Part shown: positions 11,154-43,812 of the stretch, in pieces | Layout of the letters: each line of letters starts with the position of its first letter | Numbering within the stretch: position 1 is the stretch's first letter | Source of the DNA: Thermoanaerobacteraceae bacterium | GTDB lineage: Bacteria > Bacillota > JADQBR01 | Assembly (NCBI GenBank): GCA_017656305.1 | Contig: JACDOG010000010.1 | Coordinates: 1 to 64,000, forward strand | Direction: 5' to 3' | Length of the DNA stretch: 64,000 bases | Position numbers and translations under genes: made by a program | The notes under the pieces: generated by a model | Seen by the model: only the letters and a program-made list of their open reading frames with translations | Told to the model about the DNA's origin: nothing | Databases searched by the model: none

Positions 11154-11166
11154 TCCAGAGTGGAGA

Positions 11167-11193
11167 GAGGCACTGTACAGGTGCCTCTTTTTT
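11167..11193 (+). terminator. Terminator of the decahaem cytochrome gene
   Basis: GAGGCAC (11167-11173) pairs with GTGCCTC (11181-11187), followed by six T. Confidence 0.9.
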
Positions 11194-11245
11194 CCTGAAC
11201 AGAGTACGGGTTTTATGCTGGGGAGCAGCGGCTGGAGAAAAATGC

Positions 11246-11270
11246 AGGATTTAGAAATTTTATATCGAAA
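11246..11270 (+). promoter_or_regulatory. Possible sigma-H-type promoter before agrB
   Basis: AGGATTT (11246-11252), 11 bases, then ATCGAAA (11264-11270), close to the sigma-H pattern RnAGGAwWW-N11-RnnGAAT. The predicted transcript would start only a few bases before ATG 11282, which has no good ribosome site, so the message could be nearly leaderless. Confidence 0.4.
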
Positions 11271-11281
11271 TAAATCAAGGT

Positions 11282-11914
11282 ATGAAAAAGTTTGATGAGT
11301 TCCTTTGCAGGTCAGCAGAATATATGGCGCAGTTAAGCGGGCGCGATGCCGATGTACTGGTATTTGGCCTGCGCCTGCTAATTACAAGTATTACCGGTTA
11401 TTTAACTTTAATTGTTTTAGGCATAGTGCTGGGATTACTCAATTATGTATTAGCAGCAGCATTAACTGCTTCGCTGTTGAGAGTTGTGAGCGGTGGAGCT
11501 CATGCTTCATCACCCTTGCGGTGCAATCTGATTGGTGCTGGTATTTTTGTGTTGCTGGGATTGCTGGCAAAAGTATCTTCCCGGGAAACCGGTGCTTTGT
11601 TTACGGTTGTTCCCATTATAATTACCCTTGCTGGCAGTGGCATTCTTTATAGATTTGCCCCTGCCGGTACTCCGGGAAAACCAATTACGTCAACAGTGCA
11701 GCGAATGTATTTAAAATTCGCTTCGTTGGGACTGTTAATTGTTTGGGGTGTCTGCAGTGTCCTGCTCGTAACGTTTTCAGCAGGAGAAATATTGCCGGTA
11801 GTACTGGCTAGTTGCTTCGGTATGATCTGGCAGTTAATCAGCCTTACCCCTGTGGGATATAAATTGGTGGGCATGATGGACCATTTACTGAAACGAACCA
11901 TGACAGGGAGGTGA
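11282..11914 (+). CDS. agrB: AgrB-like peptide-processing membrane endopeptidase
   Basis: A 210-residue membrane protein with about five or six hydrophobic segments. The AgrB catalytic pair is visible: His74 and Cys81 in SGGAHASSPLRC, with the same seven-residue spacing as in staphylococcal AgrB. AgrB cleaves the C-terminal tail of AgrD and closes the thiolactone or lactone ring of the signal peptide. First gene of an agr-like operon with the agrD-like peptide directly downstream, a membrane protein and a GHKL kinase. The ribosome site is weak (AAGG immediately before ATG 11282). Role assigned from motif plus context. Confidence 0.88.
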   Translation: MKKFDEFLCRSAEYMAQLSGRDADVLVFGLRLLITSITGYLTLIVLGIVLGLLNYVLAAALTASLLRVVSGGAHASSPLRCNLIGAGIFVLLGLLAKVSSRETGALFTVVPIIITLAGSGILYRFAPAGTPGKPITSTVQRMYLKFASLGLLIVWGVCSVLLVTFSAGEILPVVLASCFGMIWQLISLTPVGYKLVGMMDHLLKRTMTGR

Positions 11915-12043
11915 ATGGACTTGAAACGCCTGGTGATTGTGTTGGTAGCCGGTTTCTTGACGCTCTTGGCTTATGCCAATGTAGCAGCGGCAAGCGGTCC
12001 TTTTAGCTACCAGCCTGAAGTTCCGGAAAAACTGCGCAGGTGA
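11915..12043 (+). CDS. agrD: AgrD-like autoinducing peptide precursor with Ser in place of Cys
   Basis: A 42-residue peptide that begins one base after the agrB stop (GGGAGG upstream). It has the AgrD plan: amphipathic N-terminal helix (MDLKRLVIVLVAGFLTLL), a short core, and the conserved acidic tail QPEVPEKLRR. Aligned on the QPEVP tail, the mature core would be around ASGPFS, giving a five-residue ring SGPFS closed through Ser27 as a lactone instead of the usual thiolactone through Cys; there is no Cys in the peptide. Precursor identity follows from position and tail; the exact ends of the signal are inferred. Confidence 0.8.
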   Translation: MDLKRLVIVLVAGFLTLLAYANVAAASGPFSYQPEVPEKLRR

Positions 12044-12069
12044 TTGAGGGTATGGGAGGCGGCACCATT

Positions 12070-12546
12070 ATGGAAGATATTCGTGTACTATTGTTTTTAC
12101 ACATTGTGGAATCATTGTTGCTGGCCGCAGTGGGGTTAAGATTGTTTGACCAGCGTGTGACTTATGGGAAACTGTTGTTAATTGGAGTCGTTCACGGGTT
12201 AATTGTATGGTTGGTAAGAGGTTTCTATAAGTATAACGGAATTGCCCTGGGAAGTCACACCGTTGTAGTTGCAATCTTTTTGTTTTTACTATTAAAATTG
12301 TTAGCAGAAGTGTCCTGGAGTATTGCCATGGGTGCCACACTCGTCAGTTTCTGTTTGGTCTCATTTGGCGGTATGATACCCGGGGTTATTATTAAATACT
12401 TTGACCTCAATATACAAGTAATTTTTAGCAATCCGTGGTGGCACGTTTTGGTGGGGTTAACCGAAACCAGCTTTTTAATTTTGGCCTTATTACTCAACAT
12501 TGTTTTCGGAATAAAGGTTACTGGAACTTCGGAAATACTGGAGTAA
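12070..12546 (+). CDS. Integral membrane protein of the agr-like operon, candidate detached sensor domain
   Basis: A 158-residue protein with about five membrane helices and almost no soluble part. The start is ATG 12070 with GGGAGGCGG upstream; a GTG at 12040 overlaps the agrD stop and is less likely. It lies between agrD and a GHKL kinase that has only two short membrane helices, so it resembles the multi-helix peptide-sensing half of AgrC encoded as a separate protein. That role is inference from position and topology; no catalytic motif is seen. Confidence 0.7.
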   Translation: MEDIRVLLFLHIVESLLLAAVGLRLFDQRVTYGKLLLIGVVHGLIVWLVRGFYKYNGIALGSHTVVVAIFLFLLLKLLAEVSWSIAMGATLVSFCLVSFGGMIPGVIIKYFDLNIQVIFSNPWWHVLVGLTETSFLILALLLNIVFGIKVTGTSEILE

Positions 12547-12555
12547 GACACAGAG

Positions 12556-13386
12556 ATGAGAAAGAAGAAGCTATTACTTTTGAATTTTTTTTTACTGCAG
12601 ACGTTCTTATTTTCCTTGATAATGTATAATGAATATTTCCGAAATTTTGGTGATGTATTCTACATGCATCCCGCAATCATTTTAATTTTTGTGGTTATAA
12701 TCGTTGTACTCAGTTTTTTCATTGTCCGGGAACTGGTTAAGGCAGTTGAAAAGGAAAAACAAGAAGAAATCATGCAGGTCAAATACCAGGAGGCAACCAA
12801 AACTATTGATGCCTTAAAGTCCAAGAAACACGACTTTGTCAATCACCTGCAGGTGATATCCGGGCTTATTCAAATGAATAAAAGTGACGATGCTCTGGAC
12901 TACATAAAAAAACTGTCGCAGGATTTAAAACAGGTAGATAAGATTGTAAAAATTGACCGGCCTGAGGTGGCGGCATTGTTGAGCACCAAGCTTGCCTCTG
13001 CCGAAGGAGTGCAGGTTGTTTTGGACATAAATTCCTCTCTATCCCATTTAAACATTGCTTCTGATAAGATTGTTAGTATTTTGAGCAATTTATTGGACAA
13101 TGCCATCTACCAGGCGGGACAGGAAGAGGAGCAGTGGGTGAGGGTTCGGATAGACGAAGAACGTGACTGGTATTTATTCAGGATAACCAATCCCGGGGTA
13201 ATACCATCCCAACTCAAAGAAAAAATTTTTAACCCGGGTGTTACCACCAAGGGAGAGCACGGTACGGGAATGGGGCTTTATATTGTTAACAAGCTGGTTG
13301 GCGAGTGTGGCGGTACTGTTTCCTTTACTTCCGAAGAGCGGGAAGGCACCACGTTTGTGATTAGATTGCCAAGATACAAACAATAG
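12556..13386 (+). CDS. GHKL-type sensor histidine kinase (AgrC/Spo0B-like)
   Basis: A 276-residue kinase. Two membrane helices (about residues 5-25 and 40-60), a short coiled coil, the phospho-acceptor box around His92 (SKKHDFVNHLQVI), N box NLLDNAIYQ and G boxes NPGV and GEHGTGMGLYIV. This is the family of AgrC and citrate-sensor kinases, but without their sensor domain, which may be supplied by the preceding membrane protein. No response regulator gene follows; the nearest LytTR regulator (27021-27770) has its own kinase. The frame starts nine bases after the previous stop. Confidence 0.85.
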   Translation: MRKKKLLLLNFFLLQTFLFSLIMYNEYFRNFGDVFYMHPAIILIFVVIIVVLSFFIVRELVKAVEKEKQEEIMQVKYQEATKTIDALKSKKHDFVNHLQVISGLIQMNKSDDALDYIKKLSQDLKQVDKIVKIDRPEVAALLSTKLASAEGVQVVLDINSSLSHLNIASDKIVSILSNLLDNAIYQAGQEEEQWVRVRIDEERDWYLFRITNPGVIPSQLKEKIFNPGVTTKGEHGTGMGLYIVNKLVGECGGTVSFTSEEREGTTFVIRLPRYKQ

Positions 13387-13569: not shown

Positions 13570-13764
13570 ATGTTTAATATTGGCGCACCGGAACTGATTT
13601 TAATACTGGTACTGGCTGTAGTGATCTTTGGTCCCAAAAAATTACCGGAACTGGGAAAGGCGCTTGGTGGCGGTATCAAGGAATTTAAGATGGCGGCTGA
13701 AGGTATTACGGACGCTGTGGAAATTGAAGAAGAAAACAGGCCTGTAAAAAAAGAACAGGCGTAG
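13570..13764 (+). CDS. tatA: Twin-arginine translocase subunit TatA/E (first copy)
   Basis: A 64-residue protein: short extracytoplasmic N-terminus, one membrane helix (residues 8-24), the FGPKKLPELGKALG hinge, then an amphipathic helix and charged tail. TatA subunits polymerise to let folded proteins through the membrane. The start is ATG 13570 after AAGGAGGG. Followed 45 bases later by a second tatA; no tatC in the window. Confidence 0.93.
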   Translation: MFNIGAPELILILVLAVVIFGPKKLPELGKALGGGIKEFKMAAEGITDAVEIEEENRPVKKEQA

Positions 13765-13809
13765 TTAAATGGTAAATTACTTAAACTAATAGAGTTAAGG
13801 AGGCAAAAT

Positions 13810-14004
13810 ATGATTTTCGGTATCATGCCCATCGGCTTACCGGAGTTAGTAGTAATTTTGGTACTGGCACTGGTGATTTTTGGTGCGGGCAAACTTTCGG
13901 GTGTCGGTAAAGCGTTAGGTACAAGCATCCGCGAATTTAAGGCGGAGGTTAATGCGGAAGGAGACGGTGAGAAAAAGGAGCAGCAGGACCAGGTTGCCAA
14001 TTAA
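13810..14004 (+). CDS. tatA: Twin-arginine translocase subunit TatA/E (second copy)
   Basis: A 64-residue protein with the same plan (membrane helix about residues 8-26, FGAGKLSGVGKALG hinge, amphipathic helix IREFKAEV). Diverged from the first copy and lacking its PKKLPEL motif, so it may be a TatE/TatB-like partner. Ribosome site AAGGAGG. The two form a small operon that ends in front of the Moco riboswitch; Tat export would suit folded Mo enzymes. Confidence 0.9.
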   Translation: MIFGIMPIGLPELVVILVLALVIFGAGKLSGVGKALGTSIREFKAEVNAEGDGEKKEQQDQVAN

Positions 14005-27000: not shown

Positions 27001-27022
27001 AAAGCGCCTGAGGCGCTTTTTT
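27001..27022. terminator. Convergent bidirectional terminator
   Basis: AAAGCGCCT (27001-27009) pairs with AGGCGCTTT (27011-27019), with T-runs on either strand. It separates the DUF1232 gene and the LytTR operon. Confidence 0.85.
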
Positions 27023-27770
27023 ACATTCCCAGAAACTTTTTCAGTTTTCTGGCCTGATTTCTGCTTACCGGAACCTCGCTGCGTTCCTTATCGCCCACAA
27101 TTAGGTTATAGGTGCCGTTAAAGAAGGAGACAATCTCTTTCACCTTACTTAAATTTACAATGTACTGCCGATGAGTGCGGAAAAAAAATTGGTCATTCAG
27201 CCTGTTTTCCAGTTCTTTCAAGGTGTATTTGGAGATATATTTGTCAGTGGCAGTTTTTATATAGACGTTTTCATCCTGCGTGAAGGCATAAATGATATCG
27301 TCTTCGGGAATAAGCAGGGTCTTGCCGTTGCTTTCCACAGGCAGTCTGTTCAGGATAGCAGGTTCGGGTTTTTCGCTGGTTTTCTCTTCTTTTTCCTTAT
27401 TCTTTTCTGCAAGTCGAAACACTTTTTGCATGGCTTGATAAAAACGCTTTTCGTCAAAGGGTTTTAGCACGTAATCTACCGCGTTGACTTCAAATGCCTT
27501 GACGGCATATTCCTCATAAGCCGTGACGAATATGATGTAAGGTTTGTTAGGGATGTCCTGCAAGATGGTGCTTAATTCCAAACCGCTCATACCGGGCATT
27601 TCGATATCGAGAAACAGTATGGAATAGTCTAACGCGGAAATTAGCTTCAGGGCTTCCCGGGCGTTTGCCGCTTCACCCACTATTTCCACATTATCAAATT
27701 GTTCAAGCATGTATCTGAGTTCTTTTCTGGCCGGATACTCATCGTCGACGATGAGCGCTTTCAATTTCAT
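27021..27770 (-). CDS. LytTR-family response regulator
   Basis: A 249-residue regulator: receiver domain (residues 3-120, phospho-acceptor Asp in LFLDIEMPGMSG, then VTAYEEYAVKAFE and LKPFDEKRF), a charged linker, and a C-terminal LytTR DNA-binding domain (RLNDQFFFRTHRQYIVNLSKVKE, from about 145). The start is ATG 27770 with AGAGGAGG upstream, inside the end of the kinase gene. Pairs with the LytS-type kinase; by position it probably controls acetate or pyruvate uptake and activation genes next door. Confidence 0.9.
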   Translation of the reverse strand: MKLKALIVDDEYPARKELRYMLEQFDNVEIVGEAANAREALKLISALDYSILFLDIEMPGMSGLELSTILQDIPNKPYIIFVTAYEEYAVKAFEVNAVDYVLKPFDEKRFYQAMQKVFRLAEKNKEKEEKTSEKPEPAILNRLPVESNGKTLLIPEDDIIYAFTQDENVYIKTATDKYISKYTLKELENRLNDQFFFRTHRQYIVNLSKVKEIVSFFNGTYNLIVGDKERSEVPVSRNQARKLKKFLGM

Positions 27771-29097
27771 AGTAGTCGAGGCCTCCTCTGTAAGAGGTAA
27801 TAATCTCACTGTCGTCAGTAATCAGAGGAATACGGATCTTGATTGAGGTGCCTTCATTGACAGTGCTGACAATTTTTAACCCGTAATCCTCACCAAACAG
27901 ATTTTTAATCCGCTGGTGAACGTTGCTGAGACCGACACCGTTGCCGGAACCGACGCCGGGCTGCAGTACTTCTTCTATTTTATCGGTGGGAATGCCCACA
28001 CCGTCGTCGGTTACCTCCAGGATTAGTTCATTCCGTTCTTTGCGCGCCTGAACCTTGACAGTTCCATTGCCCACTTTGGGAGTGATGCCGTGTTTGACTG
28101 CATTTTCTACCAGCGGCTGGATGCTCAGCACGGGCACCTTGTAGTCCAGCAGGTATTCCGGTACTTCTTGGACAATCTGCAATTTGTTGCCAAACCGTGC
28201 CTTTTCCAATTCCAGGTAGGTGTTTACGCACTCCAGCTCTTCTTCAAGAGTGATAAAATGTCCATGTCTTTTCAGGGTCTGGCGGAAAAATTCCGCCAAC
28301 CGTATCAGCAAGTGCCGGGCTTTGTCAGGGTTGGTTCTGCTGTACATGATAATGGTATTCAGTGTATTGAAAAAGAAGTGCGGGTTGATCTGGGCATGCA
28401 ATGCATCCAATTTTGCCATGGTCAGCAGTTGAGTTTGCCGGTCCAGCTCCGCCAGCTCGATCTGCATGCTCAGCAGCTGGCCGATACCCTTTGCCAAACG
28501 AATGACATGGGGAGGAAGCTGCCCGTCTTCCGTTTGGTACAGTTTTAATGTACCCACCACTTCATTCTTGTTTTTCAGAGGGACGATAACTGCTGCGTCC
28601 AAAGGGCAATCGCAATTTTCAATAGGGCAGTTGAGCTGTTTGGACGTGTGTACTACCTTATGTTTACCGGTCCGGAGTACCTCCTTGGTAGCTTCCGTAA
28701 GAATCTTGTCTCCCGGCTGGTGCATTTCGCAGCCTACACCCAGGTAGGCCAGCACCTGCTCGCGGTTGGTCACGGCCACAGCCGGAACTTCGGTGATTTT
28801 TTGGATGATTTCCGCGATTTGCTGTGCGGAAAATTCAGTTAACCCCCCACGGAGAATGGGCAGGGTCTCGCTGGCTATTTTCAGTGTCGGGTCGTATGGT
28901 TTTAGAGTTTCCTCCACTGTTTCTCTCGTTTCGTGAGATTTTTCCAGCCACCATGCAGCTGCAGCCAGTGCGGAAATATTAATAATCAGGACGACACCTG
29001 CAAGCTGCCAGGACTTTAAAAAACCAAACCTGGTGAAAAACAGCATATCTAATCCGGTTGCTACTATTCCCATTAACAGCAAACTGTAATACACCAT
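27739..29097 (-). CDS. LytS-type sensor histidine kinase with GAF domain
   Basis: A 452-residue kinase: two membrane helices (residues about 3-50), a GAF domain (about 70-215) containing a Cys cluster (NCPIENCDCPLD), then the His_kinase domain with LHAQINPHFFFNTLNTI and a HATPase domain (PLVENAVKHG, GVGLSNVHQRI). It lacks the long 5TM LytS sensor; the Cys-rich GAF loop could bind metal or sense redox. The start is ATG 29097 after GGGGAGG. Overlaps the regulator gene by 32 bases. Confidence 0.9.
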   Translation of the reverse strand: MVYYSLLLMGIVATGLDMLFFTRFGFLKSWQLAGVVLIINISALAAAAWWLEKSHETRETVEETLKPYDPTLKIASETLPILRGGLTEFSAQQIAEIIQKITEVPAVAVTNREQVLAYLGVGCEMHQPGDKILTEATKEVLRTGKHKVVHTSKQLNCPIENCDCPLDAAVIVPLKNKNEVVGTLKLYQTEDGQLPPHVIRLAKGIGQLLSMQIELAELDRQTQLLTMAKLDALHAQINPHFFFNTLNTIIMYSRTNPDKARHLLIRLAEFFRQTLKRHGHFITLEEELECVNTYLELEKARFGNKLQIVQEVPEYLLDYKVPVLSIQPLVENAVKHGITPKVGNGTVKVQARKERNELILEVTDDGVGIPTDKIEEVLQPGVGSGNGVGLSNVHQRIKNLFGEDYGLKIVSTVNEGTSIKIRIPLITDDSEIITSYRGGLDYYEIESAHRRR

Positions 29098-43407: not shown

Positions 43408-43437
43408 TGTTCTATCCCGGGAATGGAGGAAATTTAC

Positions 43438-43812
43438 ATGGCTAAAGAAACTATTCTGGTTGTTGATGACCAGGCGGGAGTCCGGACGCTGCTTAGCTTG
43501 CTTTGTCAGGAAGAAGGTTTAGCGGTGGAGGTGGCTAAACACGGTTTGGACGCCATAAATAAAATAAAAGAAAACTGCCCGGCAATGGTTTTGATGGATG
43601 TGCGCATGCCCGTTATGGATGGTGTTACGGCGCTGGGGTGGATAAAGGAGCATTACCCTGACTTGCCCGTAGTTATGATGACCGCTTATGCTGAAGAGGA
43701 AAGACTGGAAGAAGCGGAAAAAATAGGTGTGGTGGATGTGTGGTACAAGCCGTTTGATATTGATGAAGTGAGGGTAAAGGTGAAGGAACTCAGTCGTGTA
43801 TCTAATAGTTGA
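43438..43812 (+). CDS. spo0F: Spo0F-like single-domain response regulator
   Basis: A 124-residue receiver domain with no output domain. ILVVDDQAGVRTL (acidic pocket), Asp in LMDVRMPVMDG, Thr in MMTAYAE and Lys in KPFDIDEVR, closely resembling Spo0F of the sporulation phosphorelay. ATG 43438 follows GGAGG; an earlier in-frame ATG overlaps that site. A matching sigma-H promoter and a terminator bracket it. CheY-type function is the alternative. Confidence 0.85.
   Translation: MAKETILVVDDQAGVRTLLSLLCQEEGLAVEVAKHGLDAINKIKENCPAMVLMDVRMPVMDGVTALGWIKEHYPDLPVVMMTAYAEEERLEEAEKIGVVDVWYKPFDIDEVRVKVKELSRVSNS

Follow-up and report, generated by a model that had tools for sequence, protein, structure and literature searches.

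An agr-Type Operon with a Predicted Serine-Lactone Peptide and a Putative Two-Protein AgrC Receptor in a Thermoanaerobacteraceae Bacterium

The Operon and Its Conservation

The window, a stretch of 64,000 nucleotides from a Thermoanaerobacteraceae bacterium, carries on its forward strand (11282-13386) an agr-type quorum-sensing operon of four closely spaced genes, agrB, agrD, a membrane protein gene (the product is called MEM here) and a histidine kinase gene, which is agr-like in its working; its synthesis half belongs to agr, whereas its sensing half departs from agr by being split. Taken as a whole, the locus is best explained, with a probability of roughly 0.7, by an AIP closed as a hydroxyl lactone, a receptor made of two proteins and an outlet into the Spo0 system. 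An earlier note on this DNA had read the region as an agr-like operon with AgrB, a Cys-free AgrD, a membrane protein and a kinase, and all four genes were found where it had placed them (Table 1).

In the proposed mechanism, AgrB would cut the 40-aa AgrD before Tyr-Gln-Pro and, as the strict Ser/Thr/Cys conservation described below suggests, would close a five-residue Ser-Gly-Pro-Phe-Ser lactone through the Ser hydroxyl. The mature peptide would be read outside the cell by a two-protein receptor in which MEM, a detached N-terminal AgrC sensor, would set peptide specificity and the kinase would contribute the two final membrane helices, the ATPase domain and His92 as the phosphate acceptor. This kinase would operate without a dedicated AgrA and would phosphorylate Spo0F, or Spo0A directly, much as Spo0B contacts both.

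Table 1. Features of the operon and of a related receiver gene in the window.
Feature	Position	Strand	Basis or remark
Terminator-like hairpin	11162..11195	+	AGAGGCAC...GTGCCTCT then TTTTTT; -18.9 kcal/mol fold
agrB, membrane cysteine endopeptidase, catalytic His74/Cys81	11282..11914	+	Pfam AgrB PF04647, 118.6 bits (cut-off 23)
Shine-Dalgarno AGGGAGGTGA for agrD	11905..11914	+	Sequence
agrD, 40-aa AIP precursor	11921..12043	+	TTG start preferred; TIGR04223 match; length and start of relatives
Predicted lactone ring S-G-P-F-S, first Ser as hydroxyl nucleophile	11993..12007	+	Ser/Thr/Cys in 70/70 AgrDs
C-terminal recognition tail YQPEVPEKLRR, predicted removal by AgrB	12008..12040	+	Conserved [YH]QPxxP tail
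MEM (158 aa), putative detached peptide-sensing membrane half of AgrC	12070..12546	+	hhalign to fused kinases; structure model
Putative histidine kinase half: two membrane helices, SPOB_a DHp (His92), HATPase_c	12556..13386	+	Pfam; alignment with fused kinase L053
Kinase partner-choice stretch H+7..H+15 (Q,V,G,L,Q,M)	12850..12876	+	Compared with QVGLQL of the genome's own Spo0B
Spo0F-like single-domain receiver	43423..43812	+	Paralogue; canonical Spo0F is L153 3718-4110 (G000:C4), beside fba

The hairpin, which was identified by reading the sequence and is absent from the list of the consensus scan, divides the operon from the multihaem cytochrome gene upstream. Two TatA-like genes lie 3' of the operon (13570-14004).

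The agrB-agrD-MEM-kinase order, whose conservation in relatives the earlier note had proposed as a check, is kept in other loci with frames of matching length (L033, L034/L058, L035, L038, L039, L057, L059/L077, L060/L076, L061/L078 and L062/L079), in the genomes G004, G076 (UBA2598), G015, G036, G059 (with two kinases), G145 (DTU086), G110, G210 and G124, and also in the distant Moorella stamsii and a Thermincola ferriacetica MAG. Chance is ruled out, since both the four frames and their order are conserved in other genomes. A genome-wide scan with an AgrB alignment yielded only seven named loci. No response regulator was detected beside the conserved-order operons in the set from G004 to G124, in M. 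stamsii or in the T. ferriacetica MAG. A carboxylesterase-like alpha/beta hydrolase encoded 3' of the kinase in G004 (L033 3772-4533) might, in principle, cleave the ring of a lactone signal.

AgrB and the AgrD Precursor

The AgrB of the window belongs to its family both by profile match and by its conserved His/Cys pair, since His74 and Cys81, the residues that the earlier note had listed for an AgrB-type protease, are invariant among six homologues. The agrB stop adjoins the start of agrD, whose frame (11915-12043) matches the AgrD family TIGR04223 with 29.7 bits (cut-off 19). The frame contains no Cys anywhere, and Ser occupies the position of the ring-forming Cys of classical thiolactone AIPs; in the wider family, peptides closed as Ser lactones count as accepted members. 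The frame and its lack of Cys agree with the 42-residue peptide first described, and only the ATG start at 11915 is given up: TTG 11921 (MKRLVIV..., 40 aa) is the more probable start, since a length of 40 aa and a beginning with MKR or MRR are shared by most close relatives and since the Shine-Dalgarno sequence lies too near to the ATG. From the TTG start, the residue formerly numbered Ser27 becomes Ser25.

The ring assignment is based on 70 distinct AgrD loci collected by a tail motif that is blind to the ring position. Five positions before the Tyr/His-Gln-Pro tail, 39 of these loci have Ser, 27 have Cys and 4 have Thr, and the remaining ring positions vary widely. Such strict conservation amid free variation marks Ser25 as the likely ring nucleophile, and a Ser lactone, SGPFS, is expected; production of an AIP with a hydroxyl lactone is thus predicted with high confidence from the sequences, in line with the five-residue ring of the earlier note. 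The same note had restricted Ser lactones to a few staphylococci; Ser does occur, but in this sample it is the commonest state, and Thr is found too. These states change 11 times on the AgrB tree, the AgrB clade of the window reading Ser, Thr, Ser, Thr, Thr and the loci just outside it Cys, Cys, Ser. Cys at this position together with an adjacent regulator had been named as a possible objection; some relatives (L038, L039 and L077) do have Cys there, but they lack an adjacent regulator as well and so confirm the ring position rather than refute the assignment. Lactone AIPs are known from Staphylococcus intermedius/pseudintermedius and Enterococcus faecalis (PMC3673130). A limited literature search, which is no proof of novelty, returned no account of a Thr-closed AgrD.

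The genome harbours two further agr loci, G000:C6 (L053) and C9 (L052), whose AgrDs have the Ser rings SFFLW and SMFFY and whose kinases are fused, one of the two loci having an adjacent LytTR regulator; with the window operon this makes three agr loci, each with Ser as the ring residue. The Thr-ring AgrDs of L057 and L061 belong to Moorella and Thermincola, and it is only an idea that, in the heat, an oxo-ester might be longer-lived than a thioester.

A Receptor Probably Divided between Two Proteins

The kinase begins with two hydrophobic helices, as the earlier description of a two-helix GHKL kinase held, followed by the SPOB_a dimerisation domain and by HATPase_c (Pfam), which is matched over its full length with the N and G boxes kept. 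Its profile (A3) matches the Staphylococcus aureus AgrC kinase structure 6e52 with 68.6 bits, which assigns it to the AgrC-related kinase modules, and a Spo0B structure with 51 bits. The NCBIfam AgrC model matches only from AgrC position 141 onward, as a kinase without the first helices would. MEM has no Pfam or NCBIfam match and no sequence match in the PDB; its structure is predicted with confidence as all-helical (pLDDT 91.6), roughly five helices crossing the membrane and some further short ones being present, consistent with the five-helix protein noted before, and the best Foldseek match of this model to the PDB has an E value of only 2.6. A search with the 158-aa protein gave matches in 24 of 101 genomes, and the MEM profile has matches in 123 of the 398 genomes of the phylum sample.

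The relation between the two proteins comes from fused MEM-kinase chains of about 440-480 aa, present in some genomes and also in this one (L053). MEM corresponds to residues 1-155 of the fused kinases (hhalign probability 99.2, E 1.1e-19), and the kinase of the window aligns with residues 173-444 of L053 at 32% identity. Instead of one chain with a multi-helix sensor and a kinase, as in AgrC, two proteins are thus found that each match one half; among 84 annotated MEM loci, 74 are split and 10 are fused. Because MEM and the kinase map to the two halves of fused homologues, the receptor is very probably an AgrC split into two proteins, as had been proposed, the split itself being evident from homology and the physical association of the halves being presumed. 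The literature search, limited as stated, found no account of a split AgrC.

The Output of the Kinase

No response regulator of the AgrA/LytTR type adjoins the operon in the window, and the nearest LytTR regulator there (27021-27809) overlaps its own kinase; the claim that the operon has no regulator thus holds for the window and for its clade. The favoured reading, drawn from sequence comparison, is that the kinase may well signal to the Spo0 sporulation phosphorelay. Davidson et al. tabulated six kinase residues involved in partner choice (PMC6136694). At such residues the window kinase is closer to Spo0B than to a KinA-type kinase. We take the six entries of Table 1 of that study to be H+7, 8, 11, 12, 14 and 15, a mapping deduced from that table and the KinA and Spo0B sequences. 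At these positions the kinase reads QVGLQM, its own canonical Spo0B (L151, between rpmA and obgE) reads QVGLQL, as does the Spo0B of Desulfotomaculum acetoxidans, and 21/39 residues (54%) around the His are identical between the kinase and its own Spo0B. Three near relatives deviate from this pattern (L037 QVGLER, L076 QVGLYS, L077 QVGLYL).

Gln at H+14 occurs in 34 of 39 split kinases without a regulator and in 1 of 18 regulator-linked agr kinases, the other 17 having Glu, Ala, Lys or Tyr. The corresponding Fisher test (p 3e-9) was discounted as a proof of repeated co-evolution, since the tree shows one deep split (3 changes, with no independent replication) and since DcuS-type control kinases share Gln14-Leu15. 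In fact, DcuS-type SPOB_a kinases of the same genomes, which have their own regulators, read HTGLQL, so that Q14/L15 is common in SPOB_a kinases and unspecific for Spo0, and only H+7 and H+8 set the window kinase apart.

What speaks most for a Spo0 output is that two unrelated kinase families with sporulation-type residues join one sensor. HisKA orphan kinases share a locus with MEM in L092, L098, L100, L110, L121 and L124, with no regulator detected nearby, and read STGFQL, TVGYQL (three), TTGFQL and TTGFQM. These readings come close to the signatures TAGFQL, TTGFQL and TTGFQM of sporulation kinases (PMC6136694). The HisKA kinases beside MEM in L129, L134 and L050 are without a Kin signature. 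Spo0A was found in 16/17 genomes, among them G036 and G142, the exception being G076, which bears the operon and is only 84% complete; the Spo0A of the present genome is on G000:C3. In the larger sample Spo0A is present in 119/123 MEM-bearing genomes versus 225/273 others, a difference (p 4e-5) in which shared ancestry is not controlled. In G142 and G172, both with Spo0A, the agr kinase is the only SPOB_a protein found and might replace Spo0B.

A different target for the same kinase, namely another orphan regulator of the OmpR, NarL or CheY type, is unlikely, though it draws on the 30 receiver-domain matches of this genome. It would include the Spo0F-like receiver of the window (Table 1), for which the earlier note, placing it at 43438, had suggested a role as phosphorelay target: such a target is plausible, but the gene was rejected as the canonical Spo0F, the canonical copy being near fba (L153). 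The receiver gene adjoins tsaE/tsaB and is syntenic with L168 2985-3380 of G036, which favours this alternative; against it, the interface residues of the paralogue as read (QGVLLLD) differ at two positions from those of canonical Spo0F (QGVLEVD), and no regulator is consistently linked to the operon.

Rather improbable is that the same AIP and split receptor act on an AgrA-type LytTR regulator encoded elsewhere, such as the C31 orphan or the regulator belonging to the agr locus on C6. Of the five LytTR proteins of the genome, one belongs to an agr locus and two (on C31 and at the start of C6) stand without an obvious adjacent kinase, and a LytTR regulator adjoins the kinase, be it split or fused, in many related agr loci. 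However, the census of LytTR proteins was negative for G036 (100% complete, with the full operon), for G142 (94%, with MEM-kinase) and for G060 (99%, kinase not beside MEM), and the residue at H+14 of the regulator-linked kinases speaks against such a partner as well. The G036 contig stops shortly 3' of the kinase and a regulator could lie past this edge, for which reason the whole-genome census is there the stronger evidence.

MEM as the Probable Peptide Sensor

In the agr groups (pherotypes) of S. aureus, the peptide, the processing enzyme and the sensor change fast beside a conserved kinase. The Moorella-type loci L035 and L057 follow this pattern: the kinases are 92% identical (94% in the catalytic part), AgrB 70% and MEM 62%, and the ring shifts from SGPWG to TGPWS. 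The trend recurs in L091/L118 and is less marked in other pairs. Since MEM, AgrB and the ring diverge fast beside a conserved kinase as in the pherotypes, MEM is likely to read the peptide and to determine specificity. That MEM would instead be an accessory of AgrB for export or processing, standing only by chance beside the kinase, is improbable: it accompanies AgrB and AgrD with no recognised kinase nearby in loci such as L106, L117, L119 and L126, but it is covalently joined to the kinase in the fused loci counted above, and MEM-kinase pairs exist without AgrB (L037, L048). As for a decaying operon with an inactive Cys-free AgrD and a vestigial kinase, the broken look of the kinase frame in a fourth MEM-kinase pair of this genome (C41, L048, with no agrBD) and the lack of a kinase next to MEM in L036 count little against Ser/Thr/Cys strictly kept at the first ring position, intact AgrB catalytic residues and kinase boxes, and frames that survive across families, so that decay is very improbable.

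MEM occurs in two or three copies at L100, L036, L043, L044, L080, L081 and L091, with one copy on either side of the kinase at L044, and the multiple copies suggest heteromeric sensors. In an agr locus of Clostridium type, agrB is preceded by a weak MEM-like protein (11 bits; L063 3863-4348), which recalls CPE1562/CPE1563, hypothetical genes co-transcribed upstream of agrBD in Clostridium perfringens, where complementation required a four-gene fragment (PMC2706048). A GGDEF plus HD_5 protein adjoins two agr loci (L049 2484-4178; L063 5189-6853) and hints at a c-di-GMP output.

Significance and Comparison with Known Systems

Beyond the window, these loci tentatively outline a widespread, unannotated agr family of spore-forming Bacillota with a receptor of MEM and kinase and hydroxyl lactones, threonine ones included, in which density signals would pass straight into the Spo0 phosphorelay and MEM would be exchangeable across unrelated kinase families. 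The MEM sensors, often separate from the kinase, are easily missed by annotation, and the sequence family gives a template for searches. If the Spo0 link is true, an agr peptide would feed directly into the decision to sporulate, and Thr-closed AIPs, if true, would extend the chemistry known for AgrB. In Clostridioides difficile the AgrD1 peptide promotes sporulation via an unidentified membrane receptor, and agrBD affects sporulation also in Clostridium botulinum, C. sporogenes and C. perfringens (PMC10602386).

With the staphylococcal agr (AgrBDCA) the operon has in common the AgrB endopeptidase, an AgrD with hydrophobic leader, ring and tail and a kinase that aligns with 6e52; it differs in the AgrC that appears as two proteins, the operon without AgrA, the DHp of SPOB_a type and the predicted Ser nucleophile. 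The Ser-lactone AIP of S. intermedius/pseudintermedius and the GBAP of E. faecalis (FsrBDC) share the lactone closure (PMC3673130), which is predicted here, whereas the five-residue ring, the clostridial AgrD with its QPxVP tail, the Thr variants nearby and the split receptor distinguish the present system. The window AgrD scores above the curated cut-off of the clostridial AgrD family TIGR04223, yet it is devoid of Cys. As regards Spo0B and the membrane-bound Spo0B-TM of Paenibacillus (PMC12826061), the kinase resembles them in the SPOB_a DHp helix near the His and, as Spo0B-TM, in two N-terminal membrane helices; in contrast to Spo0B, whose gene lies between rpmA and obgE and whose ATPase domain is degenerate, it has a full HATPase_c match, belongs to an agr operon and coexists with a separate canonical Spo0B. 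Finally, it shares orphan status with KinA-E and the orphan kinases of D. acetoxidans (PMC6136694), and some MEM-linked kinases elsewhere carry residues of the TTGFQL type; the window kinase, however, is of the SPOB_a and not of the HisKA type.
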